Of a stretch of 64,000 nucleotides of DNA, positions 2-10,416 are shown piece after piece (the first letter of the stretch is position 1; every line of letters begins with the position of its first letter). The DNA comes from Massilia sp. WG5 (GTDB lineage: Bacteria > Pseudomonadota > Gammaproteobacteria > Burkholderiales > Burkholderiaceae_D). The stretch lies in contig NZ_CP012640.2 of assembly GCF_001412595.2 (NCBI RefSeq), positions 5,580,001 to 5,644,000 of the forward strand, written 5' to 3'. The notes under the pieces were generated by a model, which made no database searches, was not told where the DNA came from, and saw only the letters and a program-made list of their open reading frames with translations. Made by a program: the position numbers and the translations under genes.

Positions 2-982
2 GACCCGGCGGCCCTCGACAACACCCTCGACACCTCGGCCGAAACCCTGCGGCTGCGGGCCGAGCTGGAGGCGGGCCTGCGCGCACGCGATGCCTGTATC
101 TCGCCGAAGTTCCTGTACGACGCCCTTGGCTCGAAGCTGTTCGAGGCGATCTGCGAAGTGCCCGAGTACTATCCGACCCGCACCGAAGCGGCCATCTTCG
201 AGCGCCACGGCGCCGAGATCGCGCGCGCCGTCGGCACCGGCTCGACCCTGATCGACCTCGGCGCCGGCAACTGCGCCAAGGCGGCGCGCCTGTTCCCGCT
301 GCTGCACCCGGCCCAGTACGTGCCGGTCGATATCTCGGCCGACTTCCTGCAGGACGCCGTCGAGCGCCTGCAGCAGCGCTTCCGCCACATCGAGATGAAT
401 GCCCTCGGCATGGACTTTTCCGGCGGCGACTGGCGCCTGCCGGACGTGGTGCGCCATGAGCGCCGCCTGTTCTTCTATCCCGGCTCCTCGATCGGCAACT
501 TCACGCCGGACGATGCGCTGGCCTTCCTGCGCCGCGTGCGCGCGCAGTGCGGCGCCGACGGCGGCATCCTGATCGGCATCGACCTGGCCAAGGAACACGC
601 GGTGCTGGACGCCGCCTACGACGACGCGCTGGGCGTCACGGCCGCATTCAACCTGAACGTGCTGCGCCACGCCAACCGCCTGCTGGGCGCCGACTTCGAC
701 ATCCGCGCCTGGCGCCACCACGGCTTCTACAACGAGCGCATGGGGCGGGTCGAGATGCACCTCGAATCGAGGAGCAGCCAGCAGGTCAGCTGGCAGGGCG
801 GCGCGCGCCGCTTCGAGGCCGGCGAATGCATCCACACCGAGAACAGCTACAAGTACCGCCCGAGCGCCGCCGTCGGACTGCTGGAGCAGGCCGGCTTCGC
901 CGCCGCCGGCGTCTGGACCGACGAACGCGGATGGTTCGCCGTGATCCACGCGCGCGCGATCCCGCCGGGCGCCATGCACTGA
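2..982 (+). CDS. egtD: L-histidine N(alpha)-methyltransferase EgtD (5' partial)
   Basis: Trimethylates the alpha-amino group of histidine with SAM to give hercynine, the common precursor of ergothioneine and selenoneine. The frame is open from the first base of the window: residues reading SPKFLYDALGSKLFEAIC precede the PEYYPTRTE motif typical of the DUF2260/EgtD family, so the GTG at 158 is internal and the true start lies upstream of the window. The SAM-binding segment LIDLGAGNCAKAARL and the downstream FYPGSSIGNF motif are present, and the C-terminus (NSYKY, WFAVIHAR) matches the family. egtB follows 19 bp later on the same strand, so the two are probably one transcript. Only the N-terminal tail is missing; identity is secure. 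Confidence 0.95.
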   Translation, partial: DPAALDNTLDTSAETLRLRAELEAGLRARDACISPKFLYDALGSKLFEAICEVPEYYPTRTEAAIFERHGAEIARAVGTGSTLIDLGAGNCAKAARLFPLLHPAQYVPVDISADFLQDAVERLQQRFRHIEMNALGMDFSGGDWRLPDVVRHERRLFFYPGSSIGNFTPDDALAFLRRVRAQCGADGGILIGIDLAKEHAVLDAAYDDALGVTAAFNLNVLRHANRLLGADFDIRAWRHHGFYNERMGRVEMHLESRSSQQVSWQGGARRFEAGECIHTENSYKYRPSAAVGLLEQAGFAAAGVWTDERGWFAVIHARAIPPGAMH

Positions 983-1001
983 CAGGCAGGCAGAGGACAT
1001 C

Positions 1002-2225
1002 ATGGGAGCGAACGAACACCGCCAGGCCCGCGAATTCGAGCAGGTGCGCCAGCGCTCGGTGCACCTGGCCGAGCCGCTGTCGCCGGAGGACTGCTGCGCG
1101 CAGTCGATGCCGGACGCCAGCCCGGTCAAATGGCACCTGGCCCACACCACCTGGTTCTTCGAGACCTTCATCCTGGAGCCGCGCGAGCACGACTGGCGGC
1201 CCTTCCATCCGGCCTTCCGGGTGCTGTTCAACTCCTACTACAACGGCGTCGGCGACAAGCACCCGCGCCCGCAGCGCGGCCTGCTCACGCGTCCGGCCTT
1301 CGACGAGGTGCTGGCCTGGCGCCGCGATGTCGACGCCCGCATCGCGCGCCTGCTGCACGAGAGGCCCGAGGACGGCGAGCTGGCCGCGCTGGTGGAACTC
1401 GGCATGCAGCACGAGCAGCAGCACCAGGAGCTGATCCTCACCGACCTGAAGCACCTGCTGGCGCAGAACCCGCTGTATCCGGCCTATCTCGCTTCGGCGC
1501 TGCCGGAGTCCTGTCCGGCGGGCGCGCTGGCCTGGCTGGACTTCGAAGGCGGCCTGGCCGAGATCGGCCACCGCGGCCCCGGATTCTGCTTCGACAACGA
1601 GCTGCCGCGCCACCGCCAGTATCTCGCGCCCTTCCAGCTGGCCTCGCGCCTGGCGACCAACGGCGAGTACCTGGAATTCGTCGAGGCCGGCGGCTACCGC
1701 GACCCGAGCCTGTGGCTGTCCGAGGGCTGGGACCGGGTCTGCAGCGGCGAGATCGGCCAGCCCTTCTACTGGCGCAAGGAGAACGGCCAGTGGCTGGAGT
1801 TCACGCTGCACGGACTGCAGCCGCTCGATCCCGCGCGTCCGGTCACCCATGTGTCGCTGTACGAGGCCGACGCCTACGCGCGCTGGCGCGGCGCGCGCCT
1901 GCCGACCGAGGCGGAATGGGAATTCGCGGCGCGCGACGTCGCCATCGCCTGCGGCGACCTGCACCCGCGCGCGGCCGGCAGCGATGGCCTGGCGCAGATG
2001 TTCGGCGAATGCTGGCAGTGGACCAGCAGCAGCTATGCGCCCTATCCGGGCTATGCGCCGGCGGCCGGCGCGCTGGGCGAGTACAACGGCAAATTCATGA
2101 TCAACCAGTACGTGCTGCGCGGTTCGTCCTGCGCGACCCCGCACGGCCACGCGCGCGCCAGCTACCGCAACTTCTTCCCGGCAGGCAGCCGCTGGCAGTT
2201 TACCGGCATCAGGCTGGCCCGATGA
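1002..2225 (+). CDS. egtB: Ergothioneine biosynthesis sulfoxide synthase EgtB
   Basis: Non-haem iron enzyme that couples hercynine to a thiol donor (cysteine or gamma-glutamylcysteine) with O2. It is 407 aa: an N-terminal DinB-like domain carries the putative iron ligands in WHLAHTTWF (His45/His48) and HEQQHQE (His137, His141), and the C-terminal FGE-sulfatase domain ends in the family signature RNFFPAGSRWQFTGIRLA. The ATG lies 19 bp after egtD. Its stop overlaps the next start (ATGA), suggesting coupling. No EgtC amidohydrolase or EgtE PLP lyase is visible in the window, so the C-S lyase step must be encoded elsewhere. A second EgtB-like gene (senA) lies at 9172-10416 and differs clearly in its C-terminal signature. 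Confidence 0.93.
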   Translation: MGANEHRQAREFEQVRQRSVHLAEPLSPEDCCAQSMPDASPVKWHLAHTTWFFETFILEPREHDWRPFHPAFRVLFNSYYNGVGDKHPRPQRGLLTRPAFDEVLAWRRDVDARIARLLHERPEDGELAALVELGMQHEQQHQELILTDLKHLLAQNPLYPAYLASALPESCPAGALAWLDFEGGLAEIGHRGPGFCFDNELPRHRQYLAPFQLASRLATNGEYLEFVEAGGYRDPSLWLSEGWDRVCSGEIGQPFYWRKENGQWLEFTLHGLQPLDPARPVTHVSLYEADAYARWRGARLPTEAEWEFAARDVAIACGDLHPRAAGSDGLAQMFGECWQWTSSSYAPYPGYAPAAGALGEYNGKFMINQYVLRGSSCATPHGHARASYRNFFPAGSRWQFTGIRLAR

Positions 2226-9155: not shown

Positions 9156-9165
9156 ATCGTAGAAT
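9156..9165. promoter_or_regulatory. Overlapping -10-like elements of senA and senB
   Basis: The two start codons are 21 bp apart. On the plus strand TAGAAT (9160-9165) lies six bases before the senA ATG; on the minus strand TACGAT (9161-9156) lies five bases before the senB ATG. Both -10-like hexamers overlap and neither gene has a Shine-Dalgarno sequence, so leaderless divergent transcripts are possible. No good -35 is visible for either, so this is tentative. Confidence 0.3.
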
Positions 9166-9171
9166 GTCCGC

Positions 9172-10416
9172 ATGAACCATGACGATCCATCGTTCCGGCA
9201 CGCCGGACCCGACAAGATAGCAGGCATGCTGCGGGATGCGCGGCATTATACGCTGGCCCTGTTCGGCGCCCTCGAGGAGGCCGGCTATGCCGACGCCGCG
9301 CGCCTGCCGCGCCTGCCCATCATCAATCCGCCCCTGTGGGAACTGGGCCACACGGCCTGGTTCGCCGAGTGGTTCGTGCTGCGCGCGGCGAGCAGCAGCC
9401 GGCCCGGCGATGCGGAGGGCCACAGCCTGCTGGCGCGCGGCGACGACTGGTTCGACTCGAACCTGGTGGCGCACCGCACGCGCTGGGCGCTCGACCTGCC
9501 CGGGACCGGTGCGATCGAGACCTATTGCCAGGAGGTGCTGGAGCGCGTCCTGGAGCGGCTGGCCGGCGAACCGGTCGACGACGCCGCACTGTACGCCTAT
9601 CGCCTGGCGCTGGCGCACGAGGACATGCACGGCGAAGCCCTGCTGTACACGATGCAGACGCTGGGCGTGGCGGTGCCCGGCGAGATGGCCGGGACCCTGC
9701 CGGCGCCGGCCCCCGCAGCGGCAGGGGAGATCGCCTTCGAGGGCGGCGTTTTCCTGCGCGGCGGCGACCAGTCGCGCGGCTTCGTGTTCGACAACGAGAA
9801 GGCGGCGGTCAGCTGCCGCGTGGCGCCTTTCGCGATCGACGCCAGGCTGGTCTCGAATGCGCACTACCTGTCCTTCGTGGAGGACGGCGGCTACCAGGAT
9901 GGGCGCTACTGGAGCGAGGCGGGCCGCGCATGGCTGATGGAGACGGCGCGCACGGCGCCGCGTTACTGGCGGCGCGACGGCGACGGCGACGGCGACGGTC
10001 ATGGCGGTGGCGGTGGCGATGGCGGTCAGTGGCGGCAGCTGCGCTTCGGCCGCCGCGTGGCGCTGGCGCCGGATGCGCCGGTGCGTCACCTGAGCCTGCA
10101 CGAAGCCCAGGCCTTCTGCCGCTGGGCAGGGCGCCGCCTTCCGCTCGAAGCCGAGTGGGAGTTCGCGGCCCTGTCCGGCCATCCCGGCTTCGAATGGGGC
10201 GGGCTGTGGGAATGGACGGCTTCTCCATTCCTGCCCTACGCCGGCTTTGCGCCGGACCGCTATCTCGAGTATTCGGCGCCCTGGTTCGGCTCGCGCCAGG
10301 TGCTGCGCGGCGCGTCCTTCGCGACCCCGGCGCGCTTCCGGAGTCCACATTTCCGCAATTTCTTCACGCCCGGCCGCGACGACATCTTCAGCGGCTTCCG
10401 CACCTGCGCCTTGTAA
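9172..10416 (+). CDS. senA: Selenoneine synthase SenA (EgtB-like)
   Basis: 414-residue EgtB homologue expected to couple a selenosugar to hercynine using iron and O2, leading to selenoneine. The DinB-like domain carries LWELGHTAWFAEWF (His60) and LAHEDMHGEALLY (His149, His153) as the predicted iron triad. The FGE-sulfatase domain follows (PLWE-type core, GLWEWTASPFLPYAGF) and ends in NFFTPGRDDIFSGFRTCAL, the signature of the EgtB variant family found with SelD and a glycosyltransferase, unlike the RWQFTGIRLA end of EgtB at 1002-2225. Residues 269-284 are a low-complexity Asp/Gly run. The gene is divergent from senB, and a terminator follows its stop. An ergothioneine role is less likely. Confidence 0.88.
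   Translation: MNHDDPSFRHAGPDKIAGMLRDARHYTLALFGALEEAGYADAARLPRLPIINPPLWELGHTAWFAEWFVLRAASSSRPGDAEGHSLLARGDDWFDSNLVAHRTRWALDLPGTGAIETYCQEVLERVLERLAGEPVDDAALYAYRLALAHEDMHGEALLYTMQTLGVAVPGEMAGTLPAPAPAAAGEIAFEGGVFLRGGDQSRGFVFDNEKAAVSCRVAPFAIDARLVSNAHYLSFVEDGGYQDGRYWSEAGRAWLMETARTAPRYWRRDGDGDGDGHGGGGGDGGQWRQLRFGRRVALAPDAPVRHLSLHEAQAFCRWAGRRLPLEAEWEFAALSGHPGFEWGGLWEWTASPFLPYAGFAPDRYLEYSAPWFGSRQVLRGASFATPARFRSPHFRNFFTPGRDDIFSGFRTCAL

Follow-up and report, generated by a model that had tools for sequence, protein, structure and literature searches.

Does one short segment of a bacterial genome hold the genes for both ergothioneine and selenoneine, and does their nearness to each other mean anything? 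The question is raised by a stretch of 64,000 nucleotides from Massilia sp. WG5 (positions 5580001-5644000 of contig NZ_CP012640.2, the largest of the three that make up a 6.2-Mb genome), hereafter called the window. Within it egtD, egtB, selD/senC, senB and senA are all present as open frames in one 10.4-kb stretch. Taken together, the curated models, open frames, residues, copy numbers and linkage make it very probable that the locus is a neighbourhood combining ergothioneine with selenoneine biosynthesis; the reactions, the products and any co-regulation are those that published work on homologues would predict. An earlier note on this DNA had placed the same five genes in one stretch of ~10 kb, and both the open frames and the NCBIfam cut-offs bear it out. 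The genes of the two branches, in window coordinates, are the following.

Up to 982 (ATG 26 bases upstream of window position 1), plus strand: egtD, 335 amino acids, predicted histidine N-alpha-methyltransferase (makes hercynine), TIGR03438; the full frame is 14975-15982 of locus L002
1002-2225, plus strand: egtB, predicted sulfoxide synthase of the Chloracidobacterium type, TIGR03440, beginning 19 bases after egtD
7119-8171, minus strand: selD/senC, predicted selenophosphate synthetase, NF002098, 10 bases from senB
8182-9150, minus strand: senB, predicted selenosugar synthase (Se-glycosyltransferase), TIGR04348
9151-9171, no strand: gap of 21 bases, given by the coordinates, separating the start codons of senB and senA, which diverge
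9172-10416, plus strand: senA, predicted selenoneine synthase (non-haem iron selenoxide synthase), NF041186, with a Gly/Asp-rich loop insertion

The ergothioneine branch is represented by an EgtD that scores 377.9 bits on TIGR03438 (cut-off 290.9) with the 326 amino acids that lie inside the window, and by an EgtB that scores 569.3 bits on TIGR03440 (cut-off 360). By its sequence this EgtB is of the Chloracidobacterium type: it matches the Chloracidobacterium enzyme over its full length (PDB 6o6l/6qki/8qf6, E value ~1e-136), far above its match to PDB 4x8b, which we take to be the mycobacterial EgtB (E 2e-34). The histidines H48/H137/H141 and the pair Y79-Y80 are kept. The closest named row to the window's EgtB in the tree described below is that of Massilia norwichensis LMG 28164 (L004).

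The three sen genes had been said to match the published SenABC pathway, and they do so both by passing the NCBIfam cut-offs and, for SenA and SenB, by full-length homology to solved proteins. SelD/SenC scores 546.9 bits on NF002098 (cut-off 299), SenB 408.3 bits on TIGR04348 (cut-off 300) and SenA 515.9 bits on NF041186 (cut-off 420). SenB matches four solved SenB sequences at E values from 5e-82 to 5e-80, the alignment to PDB 8k5u (5e-82) starting at residue 1. An open frame of 758 amino acids in the program-made list is the senB frame prolonged upstream, antisense to senA. Four SenB residues, N20, T23, K158 and E231, were tested by mutation according to PMC10891094. We mapped them by motif and by alignment to solved SenB, in 91 distinct rows made up of the fetched loci and the window. 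The window's SenB has N20, T23, K157 (the published K158) and E229 (the published E231); N20, K158 and E231 are kept in 91/91 rows and T23 in 90/91. Also invariant in the 91 rows are His57, Thr82, Thr84, Asp85, Arg154 and Glu237 (window numbers), to which PMC10891094 assigns roles. The published motif EGGAHV reads EGGANV in the window; of the 91 rows, 84 have N at this position, 6 have H and one has Q. Since the mutation-tested glutamate is kept, we take the difference for variation of the clade rather than for something that defines SenB.

SenA finds its best solved match in the selenoneine synthase PDB 8k5i (E 3.2e-90, full length), with 8ryz likewise at ~3e-90, and its match to OvsA (E 4e-59) falls below that to selenoneine synthase. 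It keeps H60/H149/H153, which align with the EgtB histidines and would form the three-histidine iron site. The loss of characterised residues, which had been named as one observation that would speak against the proposal, is not what we found: the SenB residues are kept, with one motif position apart, and so are the SenA histidines. The Gly/Asp-rich loop of SenA has 21 residues in the window and 7 in 68 of 84 rows; it is encoded by short GC-rich tandem repeats at window positions 9974-10026, inside senA.

How well are the two homologous synthases told apart? The window's SenA and EgtB are 37% identical, and their cross-scores stay below the cut-offs: EgtB gets 389.4 bits from the SenA model, where 420 are required, and SenA gets 269.2 from the EgtB model, where 360 are. 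After rows that were identical, short or cut at an end had been dropped, 84/93 SenA and 25/31 EgtB rows were kept for comparison. The three histidines are conserved in both groups. At 24 positions each group is fixed to at least 95%, but for a different residue, and the window deviates at none of these. At the site of the tyrosine pair, whose role is described for CthEgtB (Tyr93-Tyr94) in PMC10903977, all 25 EgtB rows have YY; among the 84 SenA rows the first residue is W in 75 and L in 9, and at the second site 74 have F, 5 have Y, 4 have W and one has L. The C-terminal signatures (RWQFTGIRLA versus DIFSGFRTCAL) proposed earlier to separate the paralogues hold up: 25/25 EgtB rows carry the W of RWQF, and at the position aligned with it 82/84 SenA rows carry D. 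A tree of 51 rows (25 EgtB and 26 of the 84 SenA), drawn with a midpoint root and with the long rows L040 and L059 placed unsurely according to a program warning, agrees, since a single branch with 100/100 support splits EgtB from SenA. In the comparison with characterised homologues that had been suggested for the pair, each protein best matches its own solved type.

Copy numbers suggest how the branches could be joined. The window's genome has one EgtD match, which agrees with the earlier proposal of one EgtD upstream of both branches, and it has one SelD and one SelU over cut-off; the SelA model has no match in this genome, while SelA is present in 7/21 of the genus genomes sampled. With a single EgtD, a single SelD, one SelU and no SelA match, hercynine appears to come from a single enzyme and to go to two, as does selenophosphate, and we infer from this that EgtD feeds both EgtB and SenA and that SelD serves both SelU and SenB. 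EgtD would trimethylate histidine to hercynine, which EgtB would join with cysteine, using O2, into a sulfoxide that a C-S lyase would convert to ergothioneine. SenC, the only SelD found, would make selenophosphate, SenB would put its selenium on a UDP-sugar and SenA would join the selenosugar to hercynine, giving a selenoxide expected to fall apart and to be reduced to selenoneine. In such a scheme hercynine would be common to EgtB and SenA, and selenophosphate to SenB and SelU. If both products are made, this lineage is a compact natural system for studying the partition of hercynine between sulfur and selenium antioxidants, and also how a single pool of selenophosphate is shared out to tRNA and to a small molecule.

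Do the two sets stay together in relatives, as a suggested survey was to show? We surveyed 145 genomes of the family, which are related, so that the counts are not independent. SenB is over cut-off in 61 of them. In 55 of these 61 (56 with G094), judged from match positions, a divergent SenA over cut-off lies within 300 bp of SenB, and in 56/61 SelD does. Three other SenB genomes (G056, G079 and G128) have SenA over cut-off away from senB, and three (G098, G004 and G094) have no SenA over cut-off. In G094, nevertheless, a senA does lie divergently next to senB, its match being split in two, and G004 has a SenA-like protein at 408.5, just below cut-off, beside egtD. EgtD is found in 60/61 SenB genomes (the exception, G105, is 86% complete) versus 57/84 of the others. 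Among the 43 genomes with both genes on one contig, senB and egtD lie within 15 kb in 31 and at 19 kb in one; the 17/60 SenB and EgtD genomes with the two on different contigs are outside this fraction. By our own arithmetic, which has no chance model behind it, random placement in 5 Mb would bring two genes within 15 kb in less than 1% of genomes. The 61 named senB loci, many of them short contigs, have egtD in the flank in 26 cases, the flank being up to 10 kb and often less. In open-access literature listings we found no statement of an egt-sen linkage; the main papers are outside that literature, and the linkage may already be in print.

Several observations weigh against reading the locus as one combined neighbourhood. 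First, senC and senB are opposite in strand to egtDB, and the two sets are therefore not one operon. Second, the EgtE lyase model TIGR04343 stays below cut-off in 9/9 genus genomes (67 bits against a cut-off of 400 in the window's own), in a search made with this one lyase family. Third, whether a row counted as EgtB or as SenA in the residue comparison was decided by which of the two proteins of the window itself it matched best. Fourth, senB and egtD are more than 25 kb apart in 11/43 genomes, at 29-56 kb in eight genomes of two genera and at 0.65-1.9 Mb in three of two other genera. Finally, SelD lies within 15 kb of egtD in 5/17 testable genomes without SenB over cut-off, so that part of the linkage may predate or outlive senAB.

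The strand and distance observations feed the strongest of the alternatives, namely that both sets are functional but lie close together for no regulatory or metabolic reason, leuA and selD being the centre of a syntenic block that simply happens to hold both. We regard this as a real possibility, if one that we lean somewhat against. The five SenB-less genomes with SelD near egtD include one of the same genus, G126, in which SenA and SenB are both below cut-off; leuA lies between the two sets in many named senB loci; and the opposite strands fit a chance arrangement. On the other side, egtD and selD are 139 kb or more apart in the other 12/17 SenB-less genomes, against senB and egtD within 15 kb in 31/43, and the named loci L042, L043 and L057 and the genome G004 place egtD directly beside senB or senA in other arrangements. 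In L042 and L043, both Curvibacter metagenome-assembled genomes (MAGs), egtD is directly upstream of senB-senC on the same strand, and SenA is elsewhere in the genome. The reading that we prefer is the combined neighbourhood: the sulfur and selenium branches are indeed linked, the linkage makes the partition of hercynine testable, and the locus is one more ordinary case of a pathway already published, in surroundings that recur among relatives, a known system whose enzymes look ordinary.

Between the two sets lie five further open frames.

2222-3157, plus strand: YihY/BrkB membrane protein (PF03631, E 5.8e-32), its start overlapping the egtB stop by the four bases ATGA
3168-4046, minus strand: cupin_8/JmjC-like protein (PF13621, E 1.6e-33)
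4046-5734, minus strand: leuA, 2-isopropylmalate synthase, a housekeeping gene (NF002991, 898.6 bits, cut-off 455)
6269-6451, plus strand: short open frame of ~60 amino acids with one hydrophobic stretch, from the open reading frame list
6470-7114, plus strand: Rv2525c-like glycoside-hydrolase-like (DUF1906) protein (PF08924, E 1.5e-31)

The earlier note named its genes correctly but left the cupin_8/JmjC-like gene and leuA out of the interval, and it saw in the intervening genes possible transport or storage functions. With a threshold of 57% identity or more, YihY orthologues are found in 61/145 family genomes; in 20 of these the gene is no more than 4 kb from egtD, and these 20 are the whole sample of three genera. 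In the remaining 41 it is not, a distribution that points to a lineage-specific position. Among the 61 named senB loci YihY occurs in 20, DUF1906 in 11 and the cupin in 4. With occurrence near egtD or senB so patchy, and with the position of YihY beside egtD limited to three genera, a transport or storage role for YihY, DUF1906 and the cupin is unsupported. Of the earlier interpretation, the gene identities, paralogue split, single EgtD and linkage in relatives stand. The three are most likely bystanders. YihY is probably a co-translated passenger of egtB, and the overlap of the two genes may bring co-expression without shared function. The start of the cupin gene overlaps the stop of leuA by one base (window 4046), and the cupin may be translated with leuA. 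The short frame has zero family matches in Pfam and NCBIfam scans. An Rfam scan of window positions 1-13000 gave no known structured RNA, the sole match (E 0.044) scoring 18.5 against a gathering score of 40. A promoter scan of L002 14700-17000, for sigma-70-type sites from the egtD upstream region to the yihY start and with the sen genes outside it, gave zero promoter-like sites; the scan of the same interval gave one terminator-like site, inside egtD (0.3 expected).

Is selenoneine the only use of the selenium branch? It could be argued that the selenosugars of SenB and SenC serve some end in themselves and that selenoneine is just one of their uses. The argument comes from relatives with senB in which SenA was not found, and it has to be separated from cases of simple displacement. 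A whole-genome check for SenA covered the genomes of 17/61 named loci and the window's own, with the Thiobacillus-group loci L048, L049, L052, L055 and L056 outside it. In L008, L017, L042 and L043 there is no senA in the flank, yet SenA is over cut-off elsewhere in the genome; seven Thiobacillus-group loci (L044-L047, L051, L053 and L054) have the same pattern. The MAG L039/G151 (3.0 Mb) has no match to SenA or to EgtB and is not counted as lacking senA. There remain three draft genomes of near relatives, G098 (L120), M. alkalitolerans DSM 17462 (G146/L007) and Massilia sp. BSC265 (G149/L023), in which SenA was not found by family or protein search, the latter returning only EgtB at 37-40% identity. 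All three have a SenB with all checked residues, near egtDB, and have kept selD. L008 and L017 group by EgtB with strains where no senA was found, and senA is away from senB in L008, L017, G056 and G079.

The substitution ratios of senB point in the same direction, within limits. By one simple pairwise method, with no significance test, the ratio of nonsynonymous to synonymous rates (dN/dS) is 0.243 in the sister pair L007-L023, like the 0.234, 0.202 and 0.215 of the SenA-bearing pairs L008-L017, L005-L006 and L027-L058; if senA was lost before L007 and L023 split, and only then is the ratio informative, SenB stayed constrained without SenA. In addition, PMC10891094 has SenB accepting six UDP-sugars in vitro. 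Set against this, all three relatives are drafts, which can miss a gene; the senB ratio is higher, 0.34-0.38, in pairs with G098; and SenA is present in the window's genome and in most SenB genomes. We consider it unlikely that selenosugars have a purpose of their own here, and we give just as little weight to its extension, that the selenosugars made by SenB in this genus group have a role without SenA, which would make the locus a branch point of selenium metabolism leading to a second selenometabolite not yet described. The relatives with senB in which no senA was found are natural comparisons all the same, and hint at further selenometabolites.

The converse case also occurs. In twelve family genomes a SenA-family protein passes its cut-off and no SenB does, and a SenB protein search in six of them and in the near-cut-off genomes G119 and G001 gave at most 40 bits, so that SenA-family proteins do exist without SenB. 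The same combination, SenA-family over cut-off and SenB not, is seen in 7/7 sampled genomes of group g6 (G005, G048, G072, G092, G109, G123 and G136), where the SenA-family gene is on another contig than SelD or more than 1 Mb from it, so that the SenA model may take in a SenB-independent subgroup. In G119 (L117) and G027 (L119), which have no SenB and no EgtD match, a SenA-family gene is divergent from selD, where senB sits in other genomes; the G027 protein scores 480.3 (over cut-off) and that of G119 396.8 (under), and both are on the SenA side of the tree. Such SenB-less proteins, and the homology of SenA to EgtB, are what could be said for the window's SenA being a second, sulfur-using EgtB, an idea that is hardly credible for a protein over the SenA cut-off and under that of EgtB, whose best solved match is a selenoneine synthase and whose gene starts 21 bases from the start of senB.

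The combined neighbourhood can finally be set beside the known systems. The closest is the sen cluster of Variovorax paradoxus, reportedly the subject of Kayrouz et al. in 2022. The two are alike in the three enzymes and in the equivalent SenB residues, and the same chemistry is expected. They differ in that the Massilia SenB has EGGANV where the published motif is EGGAHV and in that the Massilia SenA carries the Gly/Asp-rich loop. In the window, egtD-egtB lie 5 kb from the sen genes. The cluster of SenA, SenB and SenC in V. paradoxus is treated in PMC9814287 and PMC10702425. According to PMC9814287, organisms with a sen locus were found to produce selenoneine, while PMC11448449 describes production by the SenABC route as shown in vitro and not in vivo. 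The EgtB of Chloracidobacterium thermophilum (PDB 6o6l, 6qki) resembles the Massilia enzyme in full-length homology, in the three histidines and in the tyrosine pair. The selenoxide synthase OvsA (PDB 8u41, 8ux5) is of a homologous family and shares with the window's SenA the C-terminus GFRTCAL, but with that SenA as query its two structures score 204 and 195 bits, where solved SenA scores 307.

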